The notes under the pieces were generated by a model. The model made no database searches and was not told the DNA's origin. It saw only the letters and a list, made by a program, of their open reading frames with translations. DNA of 53,599 nt. It comes from Nitrospirales bacterium. Its GTDB lineage: Bacteria; Nitrospirota; Nitrospiria; Nitrospirales; UBA8639. Positions within the stretch are counted from its first letter, which is position 1; every line of letters begins with the position of its first letter. Positions 16,386 to 47,155 of the stretch are shown one piece after another. Where the stretch lies: the NCBI GenBank assembly GCA_029261235.1, contig JAJDBS010000240.1, positions 1-53,599 of the forward strand, in the 5' to 3' direction. The translations under genes and the position numbers were made by a program.

Positions 16386-17906
16386 CTACATCCGAGAAAA
16401 AGACTCTAACAATTCTAACTCAATGGGGAGTCCTGCGAGGGGACCTTCCTGAGTCCATTGTCCTACTTGATTTCGGCCAGCATTCTTCGCAGCATAGAGA
16501 GCCTTGTCAGCTTGATCCACTAATTCTAAGGGATCAGCAGACCCTAGCGAAAAACATGAGACACCAAAGCTCATCGTAAGTCGGTTGTCTCCAGTAGTCC
16601 GCACAGCTTGACTGGCTTGGGCCGAAATGGCGAGACGCAGACGTTCGGCTGCTTTAGCTGTGTCCTCAGGGCCTTTCCCAGGTAGCAAAATACAAAACTC
16701 CTCGCCCCCATATCGCCCAACAATATCGGTTGGGCGAATCGTCGTAGAGAGAATTTGTGCGACCACTTGAATCACCTGATCCCCGACGGCATGGCCAAAG
16801 CGATCATTAAATGACTTAAAATGATCGATGTCGGCCATAATACAGCCAAAATCTAATCCACCTGAAGAACCTGACGCATGGAGATCTTCAAACACCTCGA
16901 ATAAGGCTCGCCTATTAAAGCAACCCGTTAACGGATCGCGCATCGCAAGGCTTTCTAACTCAGCTTTTGATGTTTCAAGAGCCCGAATGGTTTCTTCTAA
17001 TTTTGTGACATCATCAAAAGAAACCAACATGCCTCGAATATCTCCTTGGTCATCTTGGATGGGACTCGAATTGACGCGAAACTTTTGAGTCTCCCCAGAC
17101 GAAGTCTCGGATAACGCCATGGGAAAATCCAACTCCAAACATTTCGCTTTACGAGCGGTCACCCAGGGGAAGGCCTCTAAGGGTGATCCTAATGGTGACG
17201 CAATCCAATGAAATTCGTTCAGATTTTTGCTCATGAGCGTATAGGGATCCTGCTGAACAATCTTCCCAAAGGATCGATTAGCCAAAACAATGCGTTCATG
17301 CGCATCCAACATCACGACACCCGCATTGAGCCCATCAAAAGCTGTTTTGACCCGCAAGGGAACCACAGAGCTGGGATCAAGCTGACGAAGCGTTCGTTTC
17401 ATATAGAAGAAGTAGCCTATGGAGCAGGATCCTATGACGAGGCCGAGAAACTGAATCCATGGATCTTTCAGCCAGGCAACCCATCCTCCATCGTCAAGAG
17501 ACCGAAACCGAAGCTGAACGGTACCCCACCGCTCAGTGCTATCAAAAATGGGAACCTGAATATGATCCGGAGTGGAAGTATCACCTGGGGGTTGCTTCCA
17601 AACTTGTTGATGGCGTCCCGCAAAGGCCAAGGTCTCACCATTCGCCAAGATAACGGCAGCAGAGAGAATATCCTCGTTGCGTTGAACCAAGAGAGCAAAC
17701 GCTTCTTGAATGGCCCGACTGTCTCCATGTTCGGCCAGCAGAGAATATTGGACAGCGAGAGCTTCACTATATTTTTGACGATACTTGAAAATTTCTTCAG
17801 CTTGATTAGGGATCAAATTCACCGCAAGATCGCTCATGAGGAGGATACTCAACGTGAGGGAAACCAACCCGAAACTGATCCAGAGCAATGGGTTCGAACG
17901 TGTCAT
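16386..17906 (-). CDS. membrane diguanylate cyclase: sensor-TM-PAS-GGDEF
   Basis: At 506 aa it has an N-terminal membrane helix (about 9-25), a periplasmic segment (about 30-145), a second helix (about 150-170), a PAS domain (about 185-305) and a GGDEF domain (about 320-480). The active motif is GGEEF (400-404), and RPTD (391-394), five residues ahead, is a product-inhibition I-site, so it should make c-di-GMP with feedback control. Its ATG overlaps the stop of the giant-protein gene by four bases (ATGA), which indicates translational coupling. Residues 1-310 are colinear with the hybrid kinase at 42575-45097: RNED at 76-79 and QLDPS at 175-179 fall at the same numbers in both. The product probably responds to the state of the surface protein encoded just before it; that is inference. 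Confidence 0.92.
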   Translation of the reverse strand: MTRSNPLLWISFGLVSLTLSILLMSDLAVNLIPNQAEEIFKYRQKYSEALAVQYSLLAEHGDSRAIQEAFALLVQRNEDILSAAVILANGETLAFAGRHQQVWKQPPGDTSTPDHIQVPIFDSTERWGTVQLRFRSLDDGGWVAWLKDPWIQFLGLVIGSCSIGYFFYMKRTLRQLDPSSVVPLRVKTAFDGLNAGVVMLDAHERIVLANRSFGKIVQQDPYTLMSKNLNEFHWIASPLGSPLEAFPWVTARKAKCLELDFPMALSETSSGETQKFRVNSSPIQDDQGDIRGMLVSFDDVTKLEETIRALETSKAELESLAMRDPLTGCFNRRALFEVFEDLHASGSSGGLDFGCIMADIDHFKSFNDRFGHAVGDQVIQVVAQILSTTIRPTDIVGRYGGEEFCILLPGKGPEDTAKAAERLRLAISAQASQAVRTTGDNRLTMSFGVSCFSLGSADPLELVDQADKALYAAKNAGRNQVGQWTQEGPLAGLPIELELLESFSRM

Positions 17907-20900
17907 GAAGACTTGGGAAGAGACTCAGAAGAGAGGGAGACATCCTCTTGATCTGCATCCCGAAGAATCTGGTCTATGCCTTGATGTTGGTGGGCTTCTA
18001 ACTCAGCAGCGGCCTTCACGCGCTTGGCCCAGACTTCTTTTTCTTCTTTGTTCATACTTAAGATTGGCACAGGATCAATATGCCTCCAAGAAGGTAACGA
18101 TGCCATCAAACCGGCCACCAACGCTCCCCCGCGCACCATCCACGCCACAAACCCTGTTGTGAGCGTAAACCCAGCCCCTTTCATTGAATCCATAATCCAG
18201 GAACGCTTCTCAGCCTGCTCCTCCATGGTCTGTCCCAATTCATCGGAAAATTGGTTGAGTTGCTGAAGAACATCTGCAGAGAGCTCCGTTTTAGTCAGAT
18301 CCAAAGGATCGGGATAATACGCGCGAATTTGATCAGATGTTGTCGCCCACGACCCAGGGCGTAACAATGGAGGAAGGTCCAACACATTCACCACATCATG
18401 TTGCCCACTCTGGTGTGTCTCCTCTTCCAACCCTCGACCAGCGAACCCACTCTCCTCAACAAATACATTTCCTTGACCTACTGGACCCGCGTTCTGAGAA
18501 GGGTCCCCTGGAAGACCAGGATCCGGTTCAGGCTCCGGAGTGGGTTCTGGCGTCGATTCGGGCTCTGGCTCAGGAGTCGGGTCAGGTGGAGAGGGGGAGG
18601 GGGCACCCCCTTCCATCACGTCCGTCACGGAAATAGCCAGCGTTTGCGTATCCGTGCCCCCTTGGCCATCACTGACCTGCAGCTGCACGTCATACACATT
18701 GTTGCCACCCCCATCAGCTGGATTCTCGAAATCAGGCGCCCCCACAAAACTCAAGGCCCCGCTCGTGGCATCAATCACAAATCGCGCTGCATCCGCTCCA
18801 CCAACAAGGCTATAGATCAACGGATCGCCGTCGGCATCCGTGGCCGTCAGCGTCGTCACTCCCGTCAGATTTTCTGCTAACGAAATGGCCGCAGTCGCGC
18901 CACCACCAACACTGGTCAAGACTGGGGGATCATTCACACTGACAACCGTGAGCGTCACCGTAGCCTGCCCGACACCGCCATTCCCATCGGTGATTTGATA
19001 GGTAAAAGTATCCACCCCGCTCCATCCGCTATTAGGGGTGTAGGTAAAGCTGCCATCGGCGTTCAAGACCAACGTCCCATTAGTCACATTGGCCACTGGA
19101 GTAGTGTTGACAGTTAACGTGTCAAAATCTACATCATTATCATTGCCCAAGACTCCTGTGGCCAGAGTAGTGGTCAGCGTTGTATCTTCTGCCGTCGTAT
19201 AACTATCGTTGGAAGCCACCGGCGCGTCGTTGATGCTGCTCACCGTGATCGTCGTCGCGTCCGTGTCACTCAGGGGCGTGCCCGCGCTGTCCGTGCTGAT
19301 CGTCGTCAGGGTGTCCGTGCCATTGAAGTTGGCGCTGCCTTGATAGGAAAGGCTGGCCAGGGTGGCGTTGATGTCCGCCTCGCTGCCGCTGATCGTCAGG
19401 GTGTTCGTGCCACTCGCCCCCGCACTGATGCTCGCGCTGCCACTTAAGGTCACGCTCAGGGTGCCGTTGCCCACCGTCAGCTGGGTGCTCGCCAGGTTGC
19501 CATCCACGTCCGTCACGGTAATCAGGTTGCCGCCCGTCATGGCCAGCGCCGTGTCTTCCGCCACCGTCGCCGTCGCCGGCACCGTGTTCACCGGCGCGTC
19601 GTTGATGCTGCTCACCGTGATCGTCGTCGTGGCGACATTTCCCGAGTAGGTCCCATCATCAGCCACAAACTGAATGACCCGCGTGGTCGTGGTCGGGTTA
19701 TCGGAGGTATTGTCATAGGTCACGGTCCGCAACACCTGCTCATAATTGGCGACGGTATCGGTGCCACTCAAGGTCAGGATTCCAGTCCCACTGTCATAGC
19801 TCGCCGTAATGCTGGTCCCCGTGATATCGGCGGCTAAGAGTTCAAACGCTCCATCCTGCAAATTGGTAATGGTGACGGTCAGAGAGGCGAGATTCGTACT
19901 ATCCAGATCCGTGAGGGTGGCATCACTATCCGCCAGGGTGACAGGCCCACCATCTTCAGTGAAACTCGTCACGAAGTTGGTGACGCCGGCGCCCGAACTG
20001 TCATTCGCATCCAGGTCAATGAAGGGAATAGGATTGCCAGCAGACATATTGGCGGCAAATTCCGAGGTACTGCCATAGTTGCCGCCACCCAAATCCACCG
20101 TGGCCGTGGCGGTGACAAACTCCCCGAGTCCCACAGCTGCAGCCAATGTCGAATTAAAAGAAGCATTGCCACTCCCATCCGTCGTCACCGTGGCAAACCC
20201 GAGGTAGCGTTCGGCTTCTCCATAGCCCGTGCCATCCGCCGTCGTGCTGGCAAAGAATTCAATCCGATAGGTCGTACTGGCGTTACTATTGAAGGTGCCA
20301 ATCAGATTCACATTGGCCCCGTCGGTGGAGGCAGAAGTCATGACTGGGAAGTTTTGTAGATCGTTGGCGCCTGCATCGACATCGCCTAGATCGTTTGCGG
20401 TCACGCCATCGGTTCCAAGATCAATCCCGATGCCAGAGTTCGAGTAAATGGCATTACCAAGAAGACTATTCCCAGTTCCTGAAGCATTATCAAGACCAAT
20501 ACCTGCTTGAGCGTTATACGCAAGAGTATTGCCCGCGCCGGTGGCCGTGCCTCCAATCGTGTTGCCACTAGAATTGGTAACTCGTACCCCCCAGGTTCCA
20601 TTTCCAATATCGATGGTCCCCGTTAGATCTGTCCCAATGAAATTACCTTCGACGACGGTGGCACTCGAAGAATTGGACAGAATGATTCCATCATTGCTGT
20701 TACCAGAAATCACATTACCCGCACCTGATGCAGTGCCCCCAATTTGCGTATTCGAAGCGCTATCTTCGACTTGAATACCTCGATCACCATTCCCCAGGGC
20801 CGCTGTTCCAGCCACATTGGTACCAATAAAGTTACCCTGAATCACATTACCGTCTGTGCCTGACCCAGTTACATAAATTCCGTCACCGCTATTGCTGGAA

Positions 20901-23900
20901 ATCACATTACGCGAACTCGTGGTCGTACCTCCAATAGTATTACTGGAGGCTCCACTGCTCACATAAATTCCAGCACTCCCATTACCAAGGGCAAGGCTTC
21001 CAGATGTCGTTCCGATATAGTTTCCTTGAACAAAGTTCCCCGTCGTCTCACTTCCCGTCAGGTAAATACCATGGTTGGTATTCCCAGCAATGACATTGCT
21101 CGCTCCGGAAGCTGTCCCTCCAATAACATTGCCTGATCCTGCTGTCACCCAAATGCCAAACGTATTGCCCAATGCCGCCGTACCCGTGGCATCCGTTCCA
21201 ATATAATTTCCTTCAATCACATTGCCCGTGGCATTGACGGAGGAAATCGTAATGCCCGAACTATTCCCGGCTATCACATTCCGTTCCGCTGCCGTTGTCC
21301 CGCCGATAATATTGTTCGCCCCATTGAGCCGAATACCTGCTACTGAATTTCCCAGATCCACCGTGCCAGTAACATCGGTGCCAATATAATTCCCCTGGAC
21401 AACGTTACCTGTTGTGGTGGCTCCAGATATTTCAATCCCATCACTCGTATTTCCCGAAATAATATTACGTGCGCCAGCGGTCGTACCTCCAATGGTATTA
21501 TTGGAGGCACCATTATATATCTGAACCCCATCTCCATTCCCAAGTGCTACGGTTCCCGTGATATCTGTCCCAATATAATTACCTTGAACCAGGTTCCCGG
21601 TGGCCGAGGCTCCAGACAACCAAATGCCTCTCGAAGAATTTCCAGAAATCACATTGCCAGCTCCCGCGGAAGTGCCCCCAATCACATTATCCGAACCATA
21701 CACCACCATTCCCATACTAAACCCAAGGGAGCCGGTGCCAGCCGCATTCGTTCCAATAAAATTGCCCTTAAACGTATTATTTTGAGCGCTTGTTTCAAGG
21801 CGAATTCCCGCAATCACATTCTCTTCCCCTACCCCGGTCCCACCAATTTGGTTATTATCACCGTAGATACGTAAGCCATAAGTACTGCTTAAGAGCTTCA
21901 TCCCCGTCACATCCACGCCCAGATAATTGCCCTGGACCGTATTCCCCGTGCCCGACCCTAATACCACATCATATTGATTGTTCCCGGCAATGATATTCCG
22001 TTCGCCAAGCGTGGCACCGCCAATGATATTATTATTGCTCCCAGCACTCACCTCAATGCCGCTAATACGATTACCTAGATCTACAGTCCCAGTGATATCC
22101 GTGCCAATGAAATTGCCCACGACGGTATGTCCACCCGAACCATTCAATTGAATCCCATCCCAATCAAATTGGTTAATGGCCAACCCTTGAATCGTACTGC
22201 CCGCGCCGGAGTTCAACGAAAACCCATTAAAATTCACGCCGGTCCCCGCCAATGACCCATCCAGCTCTAGGACCGGTTGTCCGGCTTGCCAGCCCGTTTG
22301 AGTCGAGCCATCAATGATCACCGCATCCGTAATGGTTGGCAGGAGAGAAGTCGGTTGAATTTGCCACCAGGAGAACCCAGCCCCCGCTCCTCCCACATAA
22401 TCCGGGTCAAAATCGGCAATTGAACCATCATCAAGCGTGGTGGTCGCGATCGTGGTGAGGGAATCGGCAATGCCGTCATTTTGATAATAGACATGCCCAG
22501 CATCGGTGAGGCCAATATCAAAGTTAATCGTATCCAAGCCAGTCGTATTATTCGTCGCTTCAATGGCTTCTCGAAGAGAGATATATCCATCGACACCCTT
22601 GTTCGCCAAAAGAGCCGCTGTCGATGAAGTGTCCCCATCCGACACGTCTGAGGTGGTATCGACAAACATGCCAACCGTGATCGCTACGGTGTCGGAATCA
22701 GTCGCGGAATTGCTGTCCGTACTCAGCACGGTCAAGGTGTCCGCGCCCGTGTAGTTCGCGGTGCCTTGATAGATGAGGGAGGCGAGCGTCGCATTGATGT
22801 CGGCTTGCGTGCCGGAGAGGGTCAGGGTGTTCGTGCCATTGGTCCCGGCACTGATGGTCGCGGCCCCACTCAAGGTCACGGTCACGGTTCCTTGCGTCAC
22901 CGCCAGTTGTACTGTCGAGAGATTACCGTCCACGTCGTTCACACTCAGGCCCGTGATGTTGAGCGCGGTGTCTTCCGCCACCACTTGTGCGCCTGGCACC
23001 GTGTTCACCGGCGCGTCGTTGACGCTGCTCACGGTAATCCCCACCGTGTCCACGTCCGTCGCACTATTGCCGTCGGTGCTCGTCATCGTGAGGGTGTCGG
23101 CGCCGCTGTAGTTGAGGGTGCCTTGATAGCTGAGGGAGGCGAGCGTCGCGTTGATGTCGGCTTGCGTGCCGGAGAGGGTCAGGGTGTTCGTGCCATTGGT
23201 CCCGGCACTGATGGTCGCCGCCCCACTTAAGGTCACGGCCACGGTTCCTTGCGTCACCGCCAGTTGTACTGTCGAGAGATTACCGTCCACGTCGTTCACA
23301 CTCAGGCCCGTGATGTTGAGCGCGGTGTCTTCCGCCACCACTTGCGCGCCCGGCACCGTGTTCACCGGTGCATCGTTGACATCGGTTATCTGAATCGCGA
23401 GCACTTCGTCGTAGGTGAGGCCACCAGAATCTGTCGCACGAACCGTGATATTGTGAGACGTCGCTGTTTCGTAATCGAGCAACGTGCCGTTCGCAACCGT
23501 GATTTCTCCAGTGGTCCCGTTGATTTGGAAGCGCCCTCCGGCATCATCAACCAAAGAGAATGTGTGCGTGTCACCACTGTCCAGGTCCATCACCCCAAGT
23601 ACATCAGCAACTCGCGTTCCATTCGCGACATTCTCAGAGACAGCTGCGGTTCCAGTCGTCACTACTCGTGAAGCAATACCGGTCAACGCCCCATCGACGT
23701 TTTCGCTTTGCCATACGGCAATCACTTGCCCGGATGACGTCTCGATGAGTTCCGACTTACGTTGATTACCGGCAGTCGTTTGATTGACGATGACCTCCCC
23801 ATCAATTGTATTCCCGCTAGCATCAAAACGTTGAGCCAAAATGGCAGAACCACTTCCGTCGCCCGCACTCGACTCCCACGACACCACAAAGCCTTCATCG

Positions 23901-26900
23901 GAACGAGTCACGCTCGACTCATAGCGTGCGGCAGACAACGTGGTATTCACCGTAAATTCCGCCGTATCCAGCACCCCATTGGCATCATAGATCGCCGCTT
24001 TCAGCGCGCTGCCCGAATCATAGGTGACGACCAGGTTGCCATCAGCCAAAGTCGTGACATCCCCAATATTATCGCCATTCAAGAGGATCTCTGAGGATCG
24101 GGCTGTGCCATCAGCGTTCATCACACGCATGCGCGTACCCAAGTCAGTCCCGTCATGGGTCCGCCAGACCACAGCGAATCCACCATCATTCAGCTTGGTG
24201 ACCTCCGTCTGTGCGCCAAACAACCCTGAGCCGGAGAGAAGAGAGCCCACTGTGAATTGGGCACCAACTGTGCTGCCAGTCCGGTCGTAGATTTGTCCCG
24301 CAATTTCGTAGGTCGTCCCGCCAATTTCATTGGCCCAGACGACAGCAAAGTCGGTTGAACTTAATGTCACCACAGTTGGCTGATAGCCTTCATTGTCACC
24401 ATCAACTCCTGGACTCACCTGAAACTCGCTGGTCGCCGGGGTCCCATCGGCATTAAATACTCGGGCTTCAGTCCAGGCATACACCCCGCTGGTCTGATCC
24501 TGCCATGCCACCACAAACCCACCATCAGAAAATGTCGCCACCGAGGGATTCGTTTCAGAATCAGTGGTTTCTGAAGTTACCAGGAATTCCGAGCCATTCG
24601 TACTGCCATCGGTGTTGTATCGTTGTCCATAAAGACCGTATCCACTACCATCCTGTCCATTGGACACCCATACAACGATATATCCCCCATCATCAAATGC
24701 CGCAATGGCCGGATCAATTTGGTCACTAGTGCCATAGGTATTAACTAATTGTTCAGCCGCTGACTCTGAGTCGAAAACAATATCCGTCGGTGCGTTGTTG
24801 ACGCCAGAGACTGTCACCGTCGTGTCGTAGTTGGCACTCGTCCCACCATCTCCATCCGTGAGGACATAGCGCACTATTCGACTACCAGTGGTTGGATTAT
24901 CCGTGTCGGTGTTCTCGTAGGTGATGTTCTGGATCAGGGCCGTCACTGATGTCGGCGTGGCTTTGTCTTCCAATAGGATAGTCAGTGGCGTGCCGCTGCT
25001 GCCGCCGAAAAAACTACCGATCTTCTCACCACCGTATTCAACGTCGCTACCATTGATGCCGATTTGTCCAGCGCCGCTGCCCTGGTGGCGAATGGCCAGA
25101 ACATCTTCGGCGTTGTCACTGCCCGCTTGGAACGACACCGTCAACGTCCCCGTATCAAAGTTACTCGAATCCACATCAGCCACGATGGCGTCGGCTCCTT
25201 GCTCAATCACCACCGCCCCATCGCCTTCGGTGTAGGCCAACGTGTCGCCGTCTAAGTTGGTCATGGTTGGGAGATCATTGACCGCAACTACCGAAATCGT
25301 GCTCGTCGACGTGAGTCCGTTCAGCCCACTCCCGTCTTCGGGAATGATATCAACCGTGCGATTTCCAGTAGTCGGGTCTTCGGAAAGGTTTTCGTATGTT
25401 ATACCTCGAACCAGCAATTGCAGATCGGCTTCTGGCGTCATGCCGCTAATATTACGCATGATCGTAAAACCATAGCCGTCAAAGTCCATCTCGAAATCTG
25501 TACTTCCAACCGTTCGTACGACAACTTCGTTCACGCCAAAGGTAAAGGTGTACCCAGCAATCGTAATTTTTTCGCTGCTCCCATCTACGAAGCCACCCAA
25601 ATTCACACCCAGGCTTTGATAGGTGATATTATCGACATCACTGACTGCGGCATCGCTGTCCGTCACATTAATCGCCCCAAGCCCCTCCGTAAACGTCGTG
25701 GTAAAATTCGTCCCAGCCCCGTCAGCCCCATTGAGGTCTGCCACAGCCTGGTCATTGACCGCGCTGACGGAAATGCTAGCCGTTTCAAGAACTACACTGA
25801 AAGGACTTGTACCCCCGAAAACAGACGCATCCACTTTGGTCCCCGCTGTGCCAGAGGTTTGGTCCCAGGCTGAAAAAGTTACGAACGCCGTATCCGCATT
25901 CAACCCATCAGGAACAAAACGCAAGCTATCGGTCGCGCGAAGGAGGAGCGAACTGCTCGTCGAAACGGACCCCACGGCCGTCCAGCCGGACCCTGTATCG
26001 TACTCCCACGTACCATTGCTGCTTACCAGCCCTGTAATCGCGATGCCCTCTACTGCTCCCGAATCCACATCCGTGATTCGATCACCTGAGACACTGGCAA
26101 TAATCGCGGAAACAAGGTCACCACTATTATTGATGTCATCTTCGGTAATGGTGGTCAGGGACATCAATCCAGAATTGTCGAGTACTGGAGCATCATTCAC
26201 ACTGCTGACCGTAATCGACACGGAATCAGAGTCGGTTAAAGCACCGGCATCTGTACTGAGGATCGTTAAGGTATCACTACCATTGAAATTGAGATCCCCT
26301 TGGTAGGTGAGGCTCGCTAACGTGGCATTGATATCGGCTTGGGTTCCAGAAATGGTGAGAGTCGTCGTGTCATTGGCTCCAGCGCTAATCGTCGCTCCCC
26401 CGCTGAGGGAGACGTTGACGAGGCCACTCGTCACCGACAATTGCACAGTGGCCAAATTGGTATCGGAATCGGCTACCGAAATCCCACTAATGGCTAATAG
26501 GGTATCTTCATTGACCACCTGTGCCCCAGGAACCGTATTCACCGGACCGCTATTCGCAACGACATTTTGAGCAAATTCGGATGTTGCACCATAGGCCAGC
26601 GCATCATCCACGCCGACTTGTCCGGCATCATCAATCACCGTCGTCGTCGCCGTCACAGACTCGCCGGAGGCCACCGCCCAGGATTCGGTGACGTTGATCG
26701 TGGCATTGCCACTGCCATCTGTCGTCACGGTCGCAAACCCCAAATACCGCTCCGCTTCGCCATGCCCAGACCCATCAGCCGCAGCACTGGCATAAAATTC
26801 AATACGATATGTCGTACTGGCGGTACTATTGAGCGTTCCCGCAATACTGACGGAACTGCCCGTCGTATTCACCGCCGTGAGTACAGGATAGTTTTGGAGA

Positions 26901-31126: not shown

Positions 31127-31179
31127 CAAGCAGTTCCTATGCGATCACAATTTCTTCTATGGTTCCTCGCTCAACACAC

Positions 31180-35118: not shown

Positions 35119-35150
35119 GTGGCTAACAGGCCATCCATATACTTCAGGTA

Positions 35151-36002
35151 TTACTTAAGGTTTGCAGTTGAAGTGGTAGTGGAAGTCTCAGGGGTGGTAC
35201 TTGGACGAAAAGAAGGCTTTTTCGAGTTGCCTCGCACCTTCTGATCTAGAAATCTCGCACTTCCACTCATCCCCGCCAAGACATGCTCTGGCTCTTCTTT
35301 GAATTTCCCAAATACACGAATGGTCTGACTGACGGGGTCAACTCGCGCGCCAATTTCGAGGACTTCCGCAAGATAGAGACCCTGTGTTTCATCAATGAAA
35401 AACTTGAACACACTTTCTTTTGTCACCCAACGCAAAGACGTCGAGGGTAAAATTAATTCAATTTCGAAGGTCTTATCATTCAACACACTCATGAGCTCGT
35501 CATACGGATTCACACTTTCATGCGGATGCACGAGCGTCTTCACCACTCGCCCAGAGAAAGGTGCAGTAATTTTACAATGTCTTACCGCAATGTTGGCACT
35601 TCTCACTGCCGCCTTGGCTTGCTTCACTTGAATTTCAGAAATTTCAACTTCTAATGTTCCGATACCGTTCAAACTCGCAAGCTCCTGATTATTCACGGCA
35701 GTTTTTTCTCGGGCTTCTAGCTCAGCCTTTGAAGCCGCAAGTTCAGCCCAATATTTTTCGCAGTCAAATTCGACTAACAGATTGCCTTTTTTAAACCATT
35801 GCCCATCGCGAAATGGCATCCGTTTCACACGAGCTTGCAACTCACTGGATATGACAGCTTCTTCTAAAGGCTTCACGACGCCCCGAACCGCATTCAAGTC
35901 AGAAGACTGAATCCCTGAACTTTTCGCAACACTCATTTCCCCACTCGTAAGCAGGACACTCATACAAAAAAAACCTAGCAATCCAAGACATATTCGTATC
36001 AT
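35151..36002 (-). CDS. HlyD/RND-type periplasmic adaptor protein
   Basis: The product is 283 aa with an N-terminal signal or anchor (ICLGLLGFFCMSVLLTSG). The lipoyl halves are AVISSELQARVKRMPFRDGQWFKKG and ITAPFSGRVVKTLVHPHESV (shown as family landmarks), with a short coiled coil between them and then a beta-barrel (ELMSVLNDKTFEIELILPS). It is short for the family and has a disordered Ser/Thr/Pro tail. It would bridge the inner-membrane parts and the TolC channel. Its ATG overlaps the tolC-like stop by four bases, and the GAF-HlyD gene starts 32 bases downstream, so the operon is tightly coupled. Confidence 0.85.
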   Translation of the reverse strand: MIRICLGLLGFFCMSVLLTSGEMSVAKSSGIQSSDLNAVRGVVKPLEEAVISSELQARVKRMPFRDGQWFKKGNLLVEFDCEKYWAELAASKAELEAREKTAVNNQELASLNGIGTLEVEISEIQVKQAKAAVRSANIAVRHCKITAPFSGRVVKTLVHPHESVNPYDELMSVLNDKTFEIELILPSTSLRWVTKESVFKFFIDETQGLYLAEVLEIGARVDPVSQTIRVFGKFKEEPEHVLAGMSGSARFLDQKVRGNSKKPSFRPSTTPETSTTTSTANLK

Positions 36003-37597: not shown

Positions 37598-38261
37598 CAA
37601 AAAACTCTAATCAACCATCCTGGATATTCATCATGACTTTACCTTCATCCACATCACCAAGAAATGCATGTGGATAATTTCCATTCAGGTGGTCGATCTG
37701 CCTAACGAACTCATGCACGAAACACATGTGTTCTTCTTCCAAGCTCTTCGAGCCCCTCGTAATACAGCACGTCTAAGATAGCAGCTTCTTCGCGTTTCCA
37801 GCCGTTCCTAGCGGCACTTTTTTTCTCTTCTGTAATAGCACTCATTTGTCAAAGTTTGCAGGACTACAGTTCTGTCTCTCGGTATTTCTGCACTTCATAT
37901 TGAATACCTTCCGTTTTTTCAGACAATGAACCAGCCCTGATACATAACAATGAGCACGAACTACTGGTAACGACTTTCCTCCTCATATAAATGCGCATCT
38001 ATCATTATCCATTTTATTCAGCATCAACACTTACTGTGTTTTTATCCGAGTCCCTACTATTACGGTTTATCAAACCTGGCCGTCTTGTTCCTATACTCCC
38101 TTGATACAAGGAATTCCTACAATCTCTAACGACAACTCATCTGGCACAAGTTTTCCTAATTTCCCTCAACAACACCAAGTGACAACCAACAACTCCTAAA
38201 ATATTTCAAAATAGAGACAAGATCATTCGCTCGGTGACCGAAAAGGAAAGTGGAGAACTTT
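37598..38261. other. 664-bp divergent control region between exporter and second giant gene
   Basis: No gene is supported here. The spacer is AT-rich and must contain promoters for both the TolC-first exporter operon and the giant/kinase operon. It contains the perfect 5-3-5 repeat CCTTG-ATA-CAAGG (38099-38111) and a TGGCAC (38142) that resembles half of a sigma-54 site but lacks the GC element at -12. Short T-rich stretches occur, without a clear stem. Confidence 0.5.
38099..38111. promoter_or_regulatory. short perfect inverted repeat in the divergent control region
   Basis: CCTTG-ATA-CAAGG is a 13-base palindrome about 150 bases before the second giant gene. It is a possible operator; nothing else supports it. 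Confidence 0.3.
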
Positions 38262-41200
38262 ATGTTGTGGGACTATGTCTACATAGGAAGTCAGGTAGTT
38301 TGCAGCTTCATGCTCGACTTATGTCAAACCGCGCCAATACATGAATCTGGAGAATCAACAGTCCGTCGTGCTAACCATCCCACGAAACGCACCAGGAGAA
38401 AGACGCACACCAGATCGACGACAAGCAACTCGAAAGATACACCCGAGAACTTACGGGCACATGAAGAGCCGGGAGAGCTGGGGCTGCTTCTCGCCCTCGA
38501 ACCCAGAATCATGTTTGATGGGGCAGCCCTCGCCTCAGGGGCTGAAGTCGTACATGACCAAATCACGCAAGGTCTGGCTATCCCAGATCAAGAATTTGCA
38601 GAACATGATACGGAGACTGAGGCATTTTCCGATCCGTTCACCAACAGCATTGATCTCTTCTCGGCCCTGTCAACAGCGACGACACCTTCCGATCGACGAG
38701 AAATAATTTTCATTGATACAAGCGTTGAGGATTACCAGACGTTACTGCTCGGGATTGATCCTCATGCTGAGGCCATATTGCTCGATTCGACAAGAGACGG
38801 CATCGAACAAATTGCTGAAATTCTTGGCGGACGCACAGACATCGACGCCGTACATATCATTTCTCATGGGAATCAAGGCGAACTACGATTAGGGTCAGGT
38901 GTGCTGAATCTCGCGTCCATGCAAGGGGAATACGCCGATGAACTGGCGATCATTAACCAGTCCTTAACGGAAGAAGCGGACTTTCTTATTTATGGGTGTA
39001 ATTTTGGGGAAGGCGAAATTGGCCAGGAGGCCGCAAACCTTTTGGCTGAGTTAACCGGCACCGATGTGGCCGCTAGTGTGAACGACACTGGCAACGCTCA
39101 GTACGGCGCCGATTGGGATCTGGAATACCAAACAGGAACGATTGAAGCACAAGTCGCGGTGAGTGCCGAAACGCAAGAGGCCTGGATCGGCAAGCTGGCC
39201 GTCTTCACGGTTGATACATTTGCCGACGTCGTCAATGCTGGCGATGGCCTGACCTCGCTGCGTGAGGCCATCATCGCGGTCAATGCCGGCAGCGGTGGCG
39301 ACACTATCAACCTCGCCGCCGGAACGTATACGCTGTCGATTGCTGGAACCGGTGAAGATGCAGGGGCAACCGGCGATTTGGATATTAACAAGGATGTCAC
39401 CATTTCCGGGGCAGGTGCGGGTACAACGATCATCGATGGCAATAGCATTGACCGCGTATTTCACATCAAAGGGACCTCTAATACTGCGTCGATAAGTGGG
39501 GTCACCATTCAAGGAGGTGATCAGAGTAACGGCGGCGGAATATTTGTTGATAATACAAGCACCCTGAACCTCTCCGGTGCCACGCTCACTGGGAATAATC
39601 ACAGCGGCGCCGGAAGCGGTGGGGCCATTCACGTTCACGGAACTGCACATCTCAATGATGTCCTGTTATCCGGAAACACCGCAGACGATGGGGGTGCTAT
39701 TGGGTTTCACGGGGCAGACGGCGGATCGCTCACCAACGTCACGATAAGCGGAAATTCGACCACCGGAAAGGGCGGTGGAATTTGGAACGATTCTGTCATC
39801 ACAGTAATCAACTCCACCATAACTGGGAACATGGCGAACTCGGATGAGGGAGGAGGAGTCTATAACACCGGAACAATAACACTCACAGACACCACTATTA
39901 GTGGTAATTCAGCGACATGGGGCGGTGGAATTAACAATACCAATAATTTGACATTAGAGCGGGTGACCATTGATGGCAATACGTCCAGCAATAATGGTGG
40001 TGGAATCTATAATTTCGCTGGAAATACCGTTTCACTAACCAACGTGACGATCAGTGGAAACACCTCGGGGAACAATGGAGGAGGAATTTTCACGACCAGT
40101 TCCATCGACATCACGAACTCCACTATCGCCTCGAATTTGGGTGGTGGAGGCATTCACACAGTAGGATCTGGCGATGCCCGCCTCAAGAATACGATCCTCG
40201 ACAATAATGTTGGGGGGAATGCCAACCGAGCACTGACCTCTCTAGGCAATAATATCGACAGTGACAGCACGGCTGGCCTGGGCGATCCGCTAGATGGGGT
40301 CAACCCGATGCTAGCAGCTTTGGCGGATAATGGCGGCCCAACTCGGACTCACGCCCTACTAGGTGGCAGCCAAGCCATCAACGGCGGCACCGCGACAGGT
40401 GCGCCTGCTCTTGATCAGCGCGGAGTGAATCGCGATGGGAGCGTGGATATCGGTGCATATGAATTCACGGGTAACAGCACACCGACGCTGGACCTGGATC
40501 TGGACGATAGTTCCGGAGCCACGGGTAACGACTACAATCCTCCCTTGCCCTTTACTGAGGGCGATGGTCCTACGGCCATTGCGGACACCGACACGGCTCT
40601 TGTGGACGCGGACCTCGGCACGTTTGCCTCCGTGAAATTGGGCATCAGTGCTCTGCTGGATGGGAATGCTGAAGTGCTCATACTCGATGGCAGTACGTTT
40701 GCCCTGGCCACGGCCGTGGCGAGCCAAAATACCATGGGCGGACTTTACCATGTGGTGCTGGCGCCGAGCGGCGTAGCGGCTTCGCTGATCATCACCAAGG
40801 CAGGTGGGGGTACATTTACCGACCCCGAGACGGAAACCCTCATCAAGGCCATCCGATACCAGCACACGGACACCAGCAGCCCCACGAATGGAAACCGGTT
40901 GATTGATGTGATCGTTAACGACGGCACCCAGGATAGTGCGGCCGCACGGACGACGATCAACATCAACCCGGTTAACGACCCGCCCGTCGCCCTGGCCGAC
41001 AGCATCACCGTCAACGAAGGTTCCACTACTATCCTGAATCTCTCGGCGAATGATAGTGATGCCGATGATGGGCTGGATCTAACAAGCATCACCATTCTTG
41101 CAGGGCCCGCCAACGGTACTATCGACAGTATTAATGCCGATGGGACAGTGACGTACACCCACAATGGTTCGGAAACCCTCTCGGATAGTTTCACCTACAC

Positions 41201-42560
41201 GATCGATGATCCTTCTGGCGTGACCTCGAACACTGTGACCGTGAGCTTAACTGTGACCCCACAAAACGATTCCCCCTTGGCTGTAGCGAATAGCTTTACC
41301 GTCAACGAAAGTTCAACGAATACATTGAACCTCAGTGGGAATGATAGTGATGTGGACGATGGATTGGATCTGACCAGCATCGCGATTATCACAGGTCCTA
41401 CCAACGGCACCATCACCAGTATTAATACGAATGGGACGGTGGAGTATACCCATAACGGCTCAGAAACCGTCGTCGACAGTTTCACCTACACGATTAATGA
41501 TTTAGCTGGCGCCACGTCAAATACTGCAACCGTGAACCTCACCGTCACGCCACAAAACGATGCGCCTACGATCATTTCTGATGGGGGTGGTGCCAATGCA
41601 AACGTCTCAGTCCTCACGGGCAACACCGCTGTCACTACGGTGAATGCCACTGATGCAGAGGGCGCCCTACTGACCTACAGCATTATTGGCGGTGTAGATG
41701 CATCCTTATTTAGCATCGACCCCACCACAGGATCCCTCACCTTTCAGACAGCTCCTAACGTTCAGACGCCTGGCGATGTTGGAGGAGACAATATCTATGA
41801 CGTCATCGTGCAAGCTTCTGACGGCACATTAACCGACACCCAAGCCATTGCCATCACCGTTGCCGATTTACCAGTTGTTGTGCTCCCGCCCACCGCCGAT
41901 CCTCCATCGGAATCTCCGTCAGAAAGCGGAGAGGAAGACGCCGGGGAATCAGAGGACGAAGTATCAGGCAATGTGTTGCTCGCTGGAAGCAACCCTCAAG
42001 GTCATGGGTCCGGCGGCAATCAAAACTCCACGGGCGAGAATCCCAATGACTCCAACCAGTTGAATCATCTGGCAAAAGACAATGTAGCCCTCATGGAACA
42101 GCTCAGAGAGGGCAACGGCATCAAAGGGACTGCGGGAGACCTGATGGGTTTGTTCCAGCAGTCGTTTGAGAGGACGACGTTGAAGAGTGAGATTGCATCG
42201 TTGCTGGGAACCTCTTCGGGATTTCTGAAAGACCTCGATGAAGCCCGTGATGCATTGAATGACGTCGTCGCCACTGAAAAAACCTATGTGGCCTCGAGTA
42301 TCGCAGCTTCCACCGGACTGTCCGTGGGGTATGTCTTCTGGCTCCTTCGAAGTGGTGTGCTCCTGACTGCCTTACTCTCTTCCGTTCCTGCCTGGCAGTT
42401 CGTGAATCCTCTGCTGGTCTTAGATAGCCCGACAAAGAAAAAACGCCGCAAAAGCCAAGAAGATCCAGAAGACGATTCCGTTGAATCTATGTTTGAAAAT
42501 CACACAGAGCCCACTCAAACATCTCAAAGCAAGACAGAGAAAAATCCAAAGTCTCACTGA
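38262..42560 (+). CDS. second LEPR-XLL/DUF4347 surface protein (about 1432 aa)
   Basis: The ATG at 38262 has GGAG six bases before it; a GTG four codons upstream is less well placed. Domains (approximate residues): a basic N-terminal leader; LEPRIMFDGAAL (79-90); DUF4347 (145-320) with H202 in IISHG and C246 in LIYGCNFGEG; a right-handed beta-helix of the polymorphic-membrane-protein type (about 325-740) with repeated SGN(S/T)-x-x-x-GGGI turns; an Ig/cadherin-like region; two tandem modules with NEGSTTILNLSANDSD and NESSTNTLNLSGNDSD; a cadherin-like module; an acidic Ser/Glu linker; and a C-terminal region with the hydrophobic anchor GYVFWLLRSGVLLTALLSS (about 1355-1375), a KKKRRK patch and a polar tail. 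The leader, DUF4347 and anchor match the 4407-aa protein closely while the middle differs. It is followed after 14 bp by the hybrid kinase gene. Confidence 0.9.
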   Translation: MLWDYVYIGSQVVCSFMLDLCQTAPIHESGESTVRRANHPTKRTRRKTHTRSTTSNSKDTPENLRAHEEPGELGLLLALEPRIMFDGAALASGAEVVHDQITQGLAIPDQEFAEHDTETEAFSDPFTNSIDLFSALSTATTPSDRREIIFIDTSVEDYQTLLLGIDPHAEAILLDSTRDGIEQIAEILGGRTDIDAVHIISHGNQGELRLGSGVLNLASMQGEYADELAIINQSLTEEADFLIYGCNFGEGEIGQEAANLLAELTGTDVAASVNDTGNAQYGADWDLEYQTGTIEAQVAVSAETQEAWIGKLAVFTVDTFADVVNAGDGLTSLREAIIAVNAGSGGDTINLAAGTYTLSIAGTGEDAGATGDLDINKDVTISGAGAGTTIIDGNSIDRVFHIKGTSNTASISGVTIQGGDQSNGGGIFVDNTSTLNLSGATLTGNNHSGAGSGGAIHVHGTAHLNDVLLSGNTADDGGAIGFHGADGGSLTNVTISGNSTTGKGGGIWNDSVITVINSTITGNMANSDEGGGVYNTGTITLTDTTISGNSATWGGGINNTNNLTLERVTIDGNTSSNNGGGIYNFAGNTVSLTNVTISGNTSGNNGGGIFTTSSIDITNSTIASNLGGGGIHTVGSGDARLKNTILDNNVGGNANRALTSLGNNIDSDSTAGLGDPLDGVNPMLAALADNGGPTRTHALLGGSQAINGGTATGAPALDQRGVNRDGSVDIGAYEFTGNSTPTLDLDLDDSSGATGNDYNPPLPFTEGDGPTAIADTDTALVDADLGTFASVKLGISALLDGNAEVLILDGSTFALATAVASQNTMGGLYHVVLAPSGVAASLIITKAGGGTFTDPETETLIKAIRYQHTDTSSPTNGNRLIDVIVNDGTQDSAAARTTININPVNDPPVALADSITVNEGSTTILNLSANDSDADDGLDLTSITILAGPANGTIDSINADGTVTYTHNGSETLSDSFTYTIDDPSGVTSNTVTVSLTVTPQNDSPLAVANSFTVNESSTNTLNLSGNDSDVDDGLDLTSIAIITGPTNGTITSINTNGTVEYTHNGSETVVDSFTYTINDLAGATSNTATVNLTVTPQNDAPTIISDGGGANANVSVLTGNTAVTTVNATDAEGALLTYSIIGGVDASLFSIDPTTGSLTFQTAPNVQTPGDVGGDNIYDVIVQASDGTLTDTQAIAITVADLPVVVLPPTADPPSESPSESGEEDAGESEDEVSGNVLLAGSNPQGHGSGGNQNSTGENPNDSNQLNHLAKDNVALMEQLREGNGIKGTAGDLMGLFQQSFERTTLKSEIASLLGTSSGFLKDLDEARDALNDVVATEKTYVASSIAASTGLSVGYVFWLLRSGVLLTALLSSVPAWQFVNPLLVLDSPTKKKRRKSQEDPEDDSVESMFENHTEPTQTSQSKTEKNPKSH

Positions 42561-42574
42561 TATATTTGTATTGA

Positions 42575-45097
42575 ATGCTGAACTTCCTCTCGACAAAATC
42601 TCGTATGGCCATTGGCCAAGTCAGTCTCCTTGTGAGTGTGTTGCTGACGGCAAGTCTGTTGGGTCTCATGCCAGATCGACTCGGGGCCATTCGCGATGGA
42701 CGCGCTGCCTTAGCCGAAGCCATTGCCACTAACAGCTCAATCTTCATTACACAGAAAGACGTAGACCGTTTGGAGGGGATCTTGTCCCTGGTCGTAGACC
42801 GCAACGAAGACCTCTTATCTGCTGGCTTGCGCACAGAAGCCGGCCAATGGCTTGTCACAATTGGTGACCATGAAGAACATTGGAGAGACGATGATTCCGA
42901 AATTTCCGATCACACCCAAGTATCGGTGTCTATTTGGGAGGGTGACACGAAATGGGGGCGAGTCGAACTTCGATTCAACCCCCTGGCTGGAAAAGGCTGG
43001 ATGGGAGTTGTCACTGATCCGCAGACCCAATTCATTCTGTTCGTAGCACTCCTGAGTTTCCTAGGTTTTTATTTCTATTTGGGAAAAATGTTGAAACAGC
43101 TCGACCCCTCACAAGCCGTTCCGGAACGAGTGCGATCGGCATTGGATACCATGGCTGAAGGGCTCCTCGTCCTAGATGACACACAACAGATCATGCTTGC
43201 CAATCGTGCATTTTCCACGCTGTTAGCCACTACCCCTGAGGCTCTTTTAGGTCGGAAGGTAGGAGAGTTCCCCTGGTCTGATGCTAATGATCAACCCTTG
43301 GAGCCAAGCACTAGCCCTTGGCAGTTAGCTTTACAATCAGGCGAGGCGAAAAAAAACCAGCGCGTTCATTTGACTCTGTCCGACAACGCGCGACACACCT
43401 TCATGATCAATTGCTCCCCCATCCTTGGTAGTGGTGCAAAGAATGTGGGTGTCATGGTGAGCTTTGATGACATCACGCAATTAGAAGAAGCAGAGATCGA
43501 GTTACTCAAATCCAAGGAGGAGGCTGAAGCCGCCAACCAAGCGAAAAGTGCCTTCCTGGCGAATATGAGTCATGAAATCCGTACACCCATGAATGCTATT
43601 TTGGGTTTCACCGAACTACTCAAACGCGGCTTCGGACGTGACTCTGAGGAAACCCACAAGCACCTCGAGATTATTCATTCTAGCGGAAAACATTTGCTGG
43701 AGCTCATTAACGACATCTTGGATCTCTCAAAGGTTGAATCGGGGCACTTGGAGATAGAACGGATACAATTTAACCCCTACCATGTGATCCTAGAGGTCGT
43801 GAAAGTCCTCAGCGCGAGGGCGAGCGAGAAACAGATCGGACTCGAACTCAAACTAGAAAACGACGTACCTGAAACCATCAGCGGTGATCCAGGGCGAATT
43901 CGTCAGATCGTCACAAATCTCGTCGGAAACGCTGTGAAATTCACGGAACAGGGCGGTGTGACGGTGACCGCTTATGCCACACGATTGGATGAAGACATGC
44001 TCCAATTTCATATCGATATTGCAGACTCCGGAGTTGGAATGAGTCCTGACGCCACAACCAAAATCTTTGAAGATTTCGTCCAGGCTGATGAGTCGATTAC
44101 TCGCAAGTTTGGTGGAACTGGTCTTGGTTTATCAATCAGTCGCAAGTTTGCCCGCGCATTAGGTGGAGATATCATCGCCGAAAGTAAGCCCGGTGTGGGC
44201 AGCACCTTCAAAGTGACCCTCGATGCAGGTAAGGTGACCGAAGTGGAATGGGTGACTCCAGAACAGGCCGTCGCCACCATTGAGGCTCCCACCATACAGG
44301 ACCAAGCCAGCTGGGTCTTTCCACCAGCCCAGATCTTGGTCGTGGACGATGGCCCAGAGAATCGCGAATTTATCAAGGTGGTGTTGGAAGACTATGACCT
44401 GACGATTCATGAAGCTGGCAACGGCCGCATCGCGGTGGACATGGCCTCAACGACTAATTACGACCTCATCCTCATGGATGTACAGATGCCCGAAATGGAT
44501 GGATTCACCGCGACCCGAATATTGCGCGACCGTGGGTTGCAAGTACCCATTGTTGCCTTGACCGCCAACGCCATGAAAGGGTTCGAGCAGGAACTCTACG
44601 AGGCCGGGTATTCAGAATATCTGACCAAACCCATTGATCTGGATCGTTTTCTATCCAAGCTGGCTGAACTCTTGAATGCCAAACAGCAACAGGATGTGAT
44701 TGTTGAAGCGATCATCTCAGGGTCGCGTCAGGAATCAACGCCTGTTGCAGAAGATTCTTCTCCGATTGTGTCCAGACTTGGTGAGAATAACCCCAGATTT
44801 GCGAAAGTGATTGCACGTTTTGTGGGTCGCTTGCAAGAACAGTTGCCCGCGATGGACAAAGCCCTCTTGGCTCAAGATTTTGACGCACTGGCCAAATTAG
44901 GCCATTGGCTGAAAGGAGCAGGAGGAACGGTGGGATTCGATGAATTCTTCGAACCTGCCAGTGAACTTGAAGCTGCTGCTCAGGCAATGGATGTAGAGAC
45001 CAGCGAAAGTCATATTCAACACATTCACCGATTGGCAGCCCGCATCGTTGTGGACAACCAGCCGGTCATATCAAAGCCTGTCCCGCACTCAGACTAA
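42575..45097 (+). CDS. hybrid histidine kinase: sensor-TM-PAS-HisKA-HATPase-REC-HPt
   Basis: The product is 840 aa. Helices at about 12-31 and 152-170 flank a periplasmic segment; PAS covers about 185-305. The HisKA motif is FLANMSHEIRTPMN with H333. The ATPase has an N box (RIRQIVTNLVGNAVKF), G1 (DSGVGM) and G2 (GGTGLGLSIS). The receiver has D635 in LILMDVQMP and K685 in YLTKP. The C-terminal HPt has H777 in LGHWLKGAGG. All phosphorelay residues are present. The N-terminal 310 residues are colinear with the diguanylate cyclase at 16386-17906. The gene starts 14 bp after the second giant gene, so the pair is one operon; the next gene, REC-GGDEF-EAL, is a plausible phosphate acceptor for the HPt. 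The signal is unknown; a link to the surface protein is inference. Confidence 0.93.
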   Translation: MLNFLSTKSRMAIGQVSLLVSVLLTASLLGLMPDRLGAIRDGRAALAEAIATNSSIFITQKDVDRLEGILSLVVDRNEDLLSAGLRTEAGQWLVTIGDHEEHWRDDDSEISDHTQVSVSIWEGDTKWGRVELRFNPLAGKGWMGVVTDPQTQFILFVALLSFLGFYFYLGKMLKQLDPSQAVPERVRSALDTMAEGLLVLDDTQQIMLANRAFSTLLATTPEALLGRKVGEFPWSDANDQPLEPSTSPWQLALQSGEAKKNQRVHLTLSDNARHTFMINCSPILGSGAKNVGVMVSFDDITQLEEAEIELLKSKEEAEAANQAKSAFLANMSHEIRTPMNAILGFTELLKRGFGRDSEETHKHLEIIHSSGKHLLELINDILDLSKVESGHLEIERIQFNPYHVILEVVKVLSARASEKQIGLELKLENDVPETISGDPGRIRQIVTNLVGNAVKFTEQGGVTVTAYATRLDEDMLQFHIDIADSGVGMSPDATTKIFEDFVQADESITRKFGGTGLGLSISRKFARALGGDIIAESKPGVGSTFKVTLDAGKVTEVEWVTPEQAVATIEAPTIQDQASWVFPPAQILVVDDGPENREFIKVVLEDYDLTIHEAGNGRIAVDMASTTNYDLILMDVQMPEMDGFTATRILRDRGLQVPIVALTANAMKGFEQELYEAGYSEYLTKPIDLDRFLSKLAELLNAKQQQDVIVEAIISGSRQESTPVAEDSSPIVSRLGENNPRFAKVIARFVGRLQEQLPAMDKALLAQDFDALAKLGHWLKGAGGTVGFDEFFEPASELEAAAQAMDVETSESHIQHIHRLAARIVVDNQPVISKPVPHSD

Positions 45098-45298
45098 CAG
45101 GTACCCCCGGGTTTCCTCGTAAAAAATCATATCAATATACCAATTTATCCTTAGGATTGAACGTTGGGATTCCGAAAGAATAGGAGTAATACATCCATGA
45201 GCGCTTACTTGTGAGACAAAAACCCCCTACTCCAATCGAGTCGGAGACAGCACTCATGTTCATCACTAGCCTAAGAGAAAGTTGAAAATCGATCTCGC

Positions 45299-47155
45299 AT
45301 GATGCCGAATGGAAACAACAGCGAAGCTGGCATGCTCAGTCAGGACACCTCTGAATCATTGGGTAAACATGTTGCACCCAGAACGAATATCCTGCCAAAT
45401 GACTTGCGAACCAGTTCCGACAGTTTTGCTCAAGCCATCATCATGATGGTCGACGACGAAGACACCACGATGGACGTCATGCAAGTCTATCTGGAAGATG
45501 CGGGATATCAACACTTCGTACTTATCGAGCATTCGTCGCAGGCCATCGCAAAACTCGAAGAAATGCGTCCGGACATTTTACTCCTCGATTTGATGATGCC
45601 CGAAGTTTCAGGATTTGAAATATTAGAACAGATCAGAGTTCATCCGCTGTTGGCCCATTTGCCGGTCATTATTTTGACGTCATCATCGGACGCGACAACC
45701 AAACTCAAAGTACTTGATCTAGGGGCGACAGATTTCTTATCTAAACCAGTCGACCCCAGTGAATTGACGCTCCGGGTTCGCAATACCCTTGCGGCCAGAG
45801 CCTATCAAAATCAGATGGCCTACTATGATTCTCTCACCAAGTTACCGAACCAAAGTCTGTTTCATGATCGCTTAACCTGGTTTCTCCAGCGCTCAGAACG
45901 CCTACAGGAAAAGCTAGTGGTCCTCTACATCACCTTCGACCAACTCAAACATGTATCCAATACCATGGCGCCACAGGTCGGTGATCAAATCATTATCCAA
46001 ATTGCAGAACGCATGCATTCGTGCATTAGGAATTCCGATATGATTGGCCATGGGAGGACTACGAACACAAGAGAAATTGATAGTTTATTTCGAGTTGGTC
46101 GAGATGAATTTTCTCTTTTATGTCCAAATATGGATATTGTCGAACATGCCACGAAAATCGCATCTCGAATTCTCAAGGTCATGGAGAAACCTTTTAATGC
46201 CAATGGCACGGATGTGTATCTTTGGCCCAACATCGGAATCGCCAGTTTTCCAGCTGATGCGAAGGAGATGACCTCACTCATTCAATGTGCCGCGAGCGCG
46301 AGCGACCAAGCCAAGCTACAGGACAAGGGAGCCTTTTGTTTTTATTCGAGCGACCTCAATGCCAAGAGTTTGGACCGTCTGGAACTCGAGGCAGACCTTC
46401 GTTGCGCCATCGGAAATAATCAACTCGTCTTACACTATCAACCCAAAGTCGACGTCATGACCGGGCAGATCAAGGGCGTGGAAGCGTTGGTTCGCTGGCA
46501 ACTACCTGACGGAAGCCTACGGTTCCCTGATCAGTTCATTCCGCTCGCAGAAGATACGGACTTGATCCATCCTCTAGGAGAATGGGTGCTTCAGGAAGCC
46601 TGCGCACAAATGGCACGATGGAAAGCTCAAGGCCTGAAATTGCAAGTTGCCGTCAATCTTTCCATGAAACAATTTCGCTCCAACAATCTGGTCCCCTACG
46701 TCAGTCAGGTCATACTCAACCACGGCTTGGATGCACAATATCTCACTCTGGAGCTAACGGAAAGCCTGGTGATGGACAACCCCGAACAAGCGGTGAAGAC
46801 CTTGAAACAGTTGATTGCCCTAGGCGTCAAGCTTTCCATTGATGACTTCGGCACAGGATATTCCTCTCTCAGCTATTTGAAACGATTTCCTCTGCATGAG
46901 TTAAAGATCGACCGTTCCTTTTTACAAGACATGACGACTGATTCGGAAGACCGTGCGTTAGTCTCGGCGATGATCTATTTAGCGCATGAATTTAACCTCA
47001 ACGTCGTTGCGGAAGGCGTCGAGAACCAGGAACAACTTGACATGCTGGTCAGTCTCGCTTGCGACCAATACCAGGGGTATTTCTTTAGCCGACCAATCTG
47101 CGAACAAGATCTCGCCCCAATGCTTTCCGGTCTCGTCACTGAAGTACAAGCCTAG
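45299..47155 (+). CDS. response regulator with degenerate GGDEF and active-looking EAL domain
   Basis: The product is 618 aa: a disordered start (1-45), receiver (about 47-165) with VDDED and phospho-acceptor D97 in LLLDLMMP, GGDEF-like domain (about 180-345) and EAL domain (about 365-605). The cyclase motif reads VGRDEF instead of GGDEF, so synthesis is unlikely. The EAL domain retains GVEALVRW, NLSMKQFR, ELTESLVM, IDDFGTGYSSL, LKIDRSF and VVAEGVE, so c-di-GMP hydrolysis is expected, under phosphorylation control. It is 201 bp after the hybrid kinase on the same strand and is the obvious acceptor of its HPt phosphate. The frame begins ATG-ATG with a weak ribosome binding site. A palindromic element starts 1 bp after the stop codon. 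Confidence 0.92.
   Translation: MMPNGNNSEAGMLSQDTSESLGKHVAPRTNILPNDLRTSSDSFAQAIIMMVDDEDTTMDVMQVYLEDAGYQHFVLIEHSSQAIAKLEEMRPDILLLDLMMPEVSGFEILEQIRVHPLLAHLPVIILTSSSDATTKLKVLDLGATDFLSKPVDPSELTLRVRNTLAARAYQNQMAYYDSLTKLPNQSLFHDRLTWFLQRSERLQEKLVVLYITFDQLKHVSNTMAPQVGDQIIIQIAERMHSCIRNSDMIGHGRTTNTREIDSLFRVGRDEFSLLCPNMDIVEHATKIASRILKVMEKPFNANGTDVYLWPNIGIASFPADAKEMTSLIQCAASASDQAKLQDKGAFCFYSSDLNAKSLDRLELEADLRCAIGNNQLVLHYQPKVDVMTGQIKGVEALVRWQLPDGSLRFPDQFIPLAEDTDLIHPLGEWVLQEACAQMARWKAQGLKLQVAVNLSMKQFRSNNLVPYVSQVILNHGLDAQYLTLELTESLVMDNPEQAVKTLKQLIALGVKLSIDDFGTGYSSLSYLKRFPLHELKIDRSFLQDMTTDSEDRALVSAMIYLAHEFNLNVVAEGVENQEQLDMLVSLACDQYQGYFFSRPICEQDLAPMLSGLVTEVQA

Follow-up and report, generated by a model that had tools for sequence, protein, structure and literature searches.

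A candidate ABC-less export and sensing system for giant DUF4347 proteins in a Nitrospira-like bacterium

Introduction

How giant repeat proteins could be carried over two membranes by an exporter whose operon encodes no ATP-binding cassette (ABC) pump is the question raised by a locus of a Nitrospira-like bacterium. The window analyzed is one 53.6 kb contig of its draft genome, which comprises 264 contigs and is about 83% complete. Open reading frame (ORF) calls and domain scans confirmed the original prediction that an operon for TolC, HlyD, GAF-HlyD and M50-HlyD is flanked by two genes for giant DUF4347 proteins (giants 1 and 2), and no gene for an ABC permease or ATPase was found within the operon. 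The composition of this gene set, its recurrence and the linkage between a C-terminal tail of the giants and adjacent sensors are genomic facts. From them we infer export, cleavage, an energy source, sensing and the adhesin nature of the giants, and the chances are about even that the set forms a system in which giant surface proteins are exported under the direction of a leader and then sensed, with the M50-HlyD fusion in place of the ABC pump of a type I system.

Results

Recurrence was studied in 269 genomes of the class to which the bacterium belongs, with at most four M50-HlyD candidates scored per genome, so that these counts are lower bounds. DUF4347 was present in 88 genomes and M50-HlyD (E ≤ 1e-20) in 113, namely 96 with an ortholog-grade protein (full-length, or fragments of higher identity) and 17 with only a paralog of 24-30% identity. 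The ortholog occurred in 87 of the 88 DUF4347 genomes (Fisher 6e-59, not corrected for kinship), the sole exception being G239, whose DUF4347 is a fragment; nine class genomes held the ortholog without DUF4347. The neighborhood count proposed with the original prediction placed 104 of 136 DUF4347 matches class-wide within 20 kb of M50-HlyD, and the remaining 32 were on other contigs. All four exporter genes were found in each of the 33 testable cases (those with 5 kb available upstream) among 64 M50-HlyD ORFs. In close relatives several giants surround a single exporter, three in G250 and four each in G232 and G233. Given the class co-occurrence, the distances and the constancy of the operon, chance clustering was rejected, and the outcome that such giants would usually be found without the exporter did not occur.

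Relatives were also found in Nitrosomonas, other Proteobacteria and Methylobacterium. A wider search listed the nearest related loci, of which there are at least 77. The 22 of these 77 loci that are not titled Nitrospira or kin were examined, leaving out the Nitrosospira-titled L206, L226 and L234, of which the first two agree in length with contigs of class genomes and the third comes from the same isolate as L226. An M50-HlyD match of 33-47% identity was present in 20 of these 22 DUF4347 genomes, and only a paralog in two. Among 229 Gammaproteobacteria, 23 contained DUF4347, 30 contained M50-HlyD (E ≤ 1e-30, both subfamilies) and 17 both; when the two genomes that prompted this search are set aside, M50-HlyD was found in 15 of 21 DUF4347 genomes. 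A Methylobacterium locus (L330) carries TolC, GAF-HlyD and M50-HlyD on the same contig as a DUF4347 giant (L243). In L314, L315 and L316, all Gammaproteobacteria, the distant paralog subfamily of M50-HlyD adjoins DUF4347 giants, which suggests a second version of the exporter. In a tree of 29 M50-HlyD proteins the Nitrospira-type rows fell into a supported set of 14, which is separate from the paralogs, stands beside Gammaproteobacteria and Nitrosomonas and includes one Chloroflexi-titled and one Nitrosospira-titled bin. Misbinning is possible for the Chloroflexi, Kuenenia and Methylorubrum bins. G200, though of the same class, was placed outside this set; its exporter operon contains a gene for a periplasmic binding protein (ANF_receptor, L088:4261-5628).

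The exporter genes of the window lie on the minus strand. M50-HlyD (31526..33661) combines an N-terminal domain, an M50 intramembrane protease with the zinc motif HELGH (33032..33046) and a HlyD adaptor. Pfam M50 was matched in 36 of 36 M50-HlyD sequences, across which H204, E205, H208 and D306 are invariant; D306 is presumably the distal Asp ligand of an M50 site-2 protease. The N-terminal domain (33380..33598) has a predicted beta-beta-beta-alpha-alpha-alpha order and may, as a lead only, be PqqD/RRE-like; a PDB profile search with this domain gave E values of 0.2 or worse throughout. The VIA-align rows span mostly residues 424-692 and barely cover the N-terminal domain and the M50 part. GAF-HlyD (33655..35118) consists of a GAF domain (23.0 bits, cut-off 22.4), a hydrophobic stretch recognized by eye and a HlyD domain. 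The other two genes encode a HlyD-type periplasmic adaptor (35151..36002) and a TolC-family outer-membrane protein (OEP, 35999..37600).

ORF calls and domain scans gave a giant 1 of 4408 amino acids (17903..31129, minus strand) with DUF4347, LamG and cadherin/Big repeats (Big_9), and a giant 2 of 1436 amino acids (38250..42560, plus strand) with DUF4347 and cadherin/Big repeats, the true start of which may differ from the first codon of the ORF. Their DUF4347 domains (30272..30766, minus; 38703..39191, plus) scored 190.5 and 183.1 bits, well over the PF14252 cut-off of 24.6 bits. Both giants carry the leader core LEPRIMFDGAA (30932..30964, minus; 38496..38528, plus). The pattern LExRxMFD[AG]A, derived from these same giants, precedes DUF4347 in 81 of the 82 ORFs of one set and 100 of the 103 of another, partly overlapping one; it was matched by three of 1680 control ORFs, all three of one sequence type. 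The LEPR-XLL label of the original prediction needs correction: the model NF012209 scored only 14.4 and 14.5 bits against a cut-off of 17, although almost all of these giants have a related leader. Leaderless DUF4347 proteins that start almost at the domain were seen in L157, L158 and L160 (G149:C39, G093:C5 and G112:C46), on contigs without a detected M50-HlyD. Elsewhere in the genome of the window, a 255-codon open frame (G000:C49:23157-23411, L003) holds a third, partial DUF4347 of 28.8 bits.

Among 151 distinct DUF4347 copies the Cys is kept in 150 and the His in 125, and both window copies hold both residues (in giant 1 within the motifs YGC and SHG). The DUF4347 profile matched a solved chain, 9qpe_G, over both the His and the Cys motif with an E value of 4.5e-4. 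This structure is a deposit of PMC13323088, where the protein is called a putative cysteine protease. The profile match thereby relates DUF4347 to a domain of putative cysteine-protease type; for a clan CD or C80-like assignment, Pfam CHAT and C80 matches were sub-threshold and seen in two of 40 members each. At the other end, a conserved hydrophobic C-terminal tail with the consensus tG.tLS.GfvaW.lRsg.LLaslla..PAW..fdPLpvl was found in 50 of the 84 DUF4347 ORFs whose 3′ end is complete; many of the other 34 are short or broken, and a shorter hydrophobic stretch closes some of them. The tail of giant 1 reads GFTLTTGFVAWMVRGGALVAGLMASLPSWRHIDPVPIL (18059..18172, minus), and that of giant 2 is encoded at 42312..42422 on the plus strand.

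Each giant gene of the window is directly followed by a sensor gene with a SensN input domain, and the two junctions were confirmed to the base as originally predicted. Giant 1 overlaps by ATGA with sensor 1 (16386..17906, minus), which comprises SensN (17367..17906, defined by alignment and class search), PAS and a GGDEF diguanylate cyclase domain with an intact RYGGEEF; two hydrophobic stretches were recognized by eye. A gap of 14 nt separates giant 2 from sensor 2 (42575..45097, plus), a hybrid kinase with SensN, PAS, HisKA, HATPase, REC and Hpt. A gene located 201 bp 3′ of the kinase gene (45299..47155, plus) encodes REC, a degenerate GGDEF (GRDEF) and an EAL domain with EALVR and DDFGTGYSSL intact, and is the likely phosphodiesterase output of sensor 2. 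Since one branch leads to an intact GGEEF cyclase and the other to an EAL protein, the two giants may, judged from these motifs, act on c-di-GMP with opposite signs.

The giant-sensor adjacency proved real and recurrent. The fetched regions had been chosen for their giants, which biases adjacency counts there, and 96 ORFs with DUF4347 or a tail were taken, of which five with less than 700 bases downstream were not classed. Of the tail-bearing ORFs, 34 were immediately followed by a SensN sensor and 23 were not; of the tail-less ORFs, 32 had no such sensor and two had one, one of these two being a short fragment and the other having its tail on a separate ORF; several other tail-less ORFs are short or broken, so that the lack of a tail can be an artefact. 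The 37 tail-sensor pairs were spaced by -25 to +79 bp, with one of the 37 set aside as too short. As a wider check, SensN was searched in the whole class with at most 12 candidates per genome, again giving lower bounds, and was found in 77 genomes, 72 with an exporter ortholog and 66 with DUF4347. In the best 30 SensN loci a tail lay just upstream in 24 (some decayed) and was masked in one, and five had no intact tail. A sensor for every giant was rejected, as 23 tail-bearing ORFs have no adjacent sensor and 22 of the 88 DUF4347 genomes have no SensN. The proposal of a dedicated sensor per giant accordingly fits the window without being a general rule: with three to four giants, G232, G233 and G250 have two sensors each. 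In L349, L350, L351, L364, L366, L368 and L369 a sensor is present although its neighboring giant is decayed or missing, and several of these loci share a gene neighborhood; such loci of Nitrospira-type genomes indicate that sensors can outlast giants. G077, where both DUF4347 and an exporter ortholog are absent, has an ORF of 167 amino acids, little more than a tail, that directly precedes a SensN sensor (L367:2675-3178).

While the SensN input is constant, the outputs vary. Among 37 sensors, 12 had GGDEF, seven were HisKA hybrids and 18 had HATPase or an output unrecognized by motif (17 were unrecognized, some of them cut by an end, and one of these 17, L102, has HATPase by domain); GGDEF-EAL outputs occur in L316 and L329. 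It is possible, though at less than even chances, that the exporter and the giants form one system whereas the sensors only regulate biofilm in the ordinary way, from operons shared with adhesins, and do no physical sensing. Enzymes of c-di-GMP metabolism are commonly found beside adhesin genes, and this explanation accommodates giants that have a tail but no sensor, tandem giants that share a sensor and sensors that have outlasted their giant. It accounts less well for an input domain that is conserved while GGDEF, GGDEF-EAL, HisKA and HATPase outputs are exchanged, for SensN sensors directly behind tail-bearing giants in the fetched regions, and for the sensor-tail pair of L106, which has no exporter in the surrounding 20 kb.

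An ABC gene hidden near the exporter was rejected: ABC genes lay within 7 kb of only three of 64 M50-HlyD genes, on the opposite strand each time, and none was shown in 20 regions outside the class. As ABC queries, the longest ORF of each of five loci in the genome of the window was taken; that of L006 is no ABC protein, which leaves four real queries. Type I secretion ABC proteins were searched with TIGR03375 and TIGR01846 in 25 class genomes that contain giants and exporter, with up to 29 candidates scored per genome (the counts being lower bounds), and with TIGR01842 in the nine genomes without a TIGR01846 pass. The curated cut-off was passed in none of the 25 genomes for TIGR03375, in 16 of 25 for TIGR01846, and in G233 and G228 among the nine for TIGR01842. 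Seven of the 25 genomes, including the single-contig G232 and G056, passed none of the three models. In the genome of the window (about 83% complete), the ABC_membrane proteins best matched MsbA-type models and none exceeded a type I cut-off in the rows shown.

Export by a separate ABC-type type I system, the outcome that the original prediction had set against itself, is thus left with a candidate pump in 18 genomes and, by these models, with none in seven. It is rather unlikely that the operon supplies only the periplasmic and outer-membrane parts of an otherwise ordinary type I system, in which an ABC permease encoded elsewhere or Sec carries the giant over the inner membrane and M50 only processes it. 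The HlyD and TolC components are canonical, and the 18 genomes would offer a pump, but the operon has no ABC gene of its own or, as a rule, nearby, and the seven genomes count against a borrowed type I pump. A signal-peptide-like stretch (best 12-residue hydropathy above 1.9) was seen in only three of 84 giants in a crude test, and Sec transport may still play a part.

Near the end of the window (50197-52961), an OmpA-family gene overlaps at its end with the next gene, which encodes 676 amino acids and has weak Pfam matches only.

Discussion

The original prediction of one adhesin export-and-surveillance system stands for the conserved ABC-less operon with giants and for the recurrent giant-sensor adjacency, while adhesin, export and surveillance roles would follow from family resemblance and linkage. 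The leader-directed export and sensing system could work as follows. The PqqD/RRE-like N-terminal domain of M50-HlyD might bind the LExRxMFD[AG]A leader, for which the fold resemblance is a weak lead. M50-HlyD, GAF-HlyD, HlyD and TolC, going by the roles of their families, would form a conduit over both membranes through which the giant passes N-terminus first. DUF4347, just after the leader, would trim the N-terminus in copies that retain His and Cys. The hydrophobic C-terminal tail would halt in the inner membrane, so that the giant is anchored and exposed, and, more speculatively, the M50 protease could later free it. The SensN domain of the co-encoded sensor would report the state of the tail, as tight linkage and co-inheritance suggest. 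From the domains and motifs seen, giant 1 would signal to a diguanylate cyclase and giant 2 to a kinase and the REC-EAL phosphodiesterase, with opposite pushes on c-di-GMP.

Several observations weigh against this scheme. The PqqD/RRE Pfam matches of the N-terminal domain were sub-threshold, in one of 36 and then two of 19 members, and the assignment also rests on secondary-structure order in one model. An exporter that lacks a recognized energy source is unusual, the type I ABC proteins present elsewhere in 18 of the 25 genomes could be borrowed, and, with at most 29 of some 40-70 ABC candidates per genome scored, a weak candidate was possibly missed. In 26 of the 151 DUF4347 copies the His position holds Glu, Asp or Lys, which means that cleavage by this domain cannot be universal. 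Six of the 23 gammaproteobacterial DUF4347 genomes have no M50-HlyD at E ≤ 1e-30, and the genomes compared are related by kinship and not independent. For the sensing part, the 23 tail-bearing ORFs and 22 genomes without a sensor, together with the SensN sensors that remain beside decayed or missing giants, count in the same direction, and joint inheritance without contact could yield the co-variation of tail and sensor. That M50 and DUF4347 free the giants as shed products or toxins, with adhesion not the purpose, is improbable: two protease-type domains are present and a relative of one is a putative type VI secretion effector protease, but the giants are dominated by cadherin, Ig-like and LamG repeats, the His of DUF4347 is lost in those 26 copies and the conserved tail suggests retention.

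Among known systems, type I secretion (ABC, HlyD and TolC) comes close in that giant repeat proteins are accompanied by HlyD adaptors and a TolC-family outer-membrane protein. Type I substrates carry C-terminal signals, whereas the giants have a conserved N-terminal leader; in addition, the operon has no ABC permease, its place at the inner membrane is taken by a fusion of M50 protease and HlyD, and an extra GAF-HlyD is encoded. LapA/LapD/LapG is an adhesin control system that likewise ties the fate of a giant surface protein to c-di-GMP and proteolysis, but here a C-terminal membrane tail would hold the giant, which would itself be the source of the signal to c-di-GMP. No LapD or LapG domains turned up in the scanned window proteins, no genome-wide search having been made. 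The daptide HExxH protease NF041824, which belongs to the export of ribosomally synthesized and post-translationally modified peptides, matches the M50 core and upstream region with an E value of 2e-46; it differs in that the score of 158.8 bits stays below the cut-off of 300, the neighbors here are giants and a HlyD half is fused. Tce1/PA0256 (PDB 9qpe) shares DUF4347 with aligned His and Cys motifs, the domain being so named in PMC8262886, but is a free type VI secretion cargo, whereas DUF4347 here is the N-terminal domain of a leader-bearing giant.

As originally suggested, no description of this exact composition was found in the open-licence PubMed Central literature searched. What comes nearest is a giant of Vibrio that has RTX parts and a LEPR-XLL domain, for which the available part of PMC10868602 names no exporter. 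As far as sequences can tell, the gene set looks like an undescribed machine that places giant adhesin-like proteins on the cell surface. We tentatively suggest, below even chances, that it represents an undescribed and widespread class of Gram-negative secretion, in which a protease-adaptor fusion would read a leader, export would proceed without an ABC pump, a tail would anchor the giant and paired sensors would read that tail, the two giants of the window pushing c-di-GMP in opposite directions.

If ABC-less export works, it would add a route for very large proteins over two membranes and, if true, would explain how DUF4347 giants arrive at the surface of nitrite oxidizers, ammonia oxidizers and other Proteobacteria. 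The pairing of tail and sensor would then tie a single surface protein to c-di-GMP, which would bear on how nitrifiers form flocs and biofilms.

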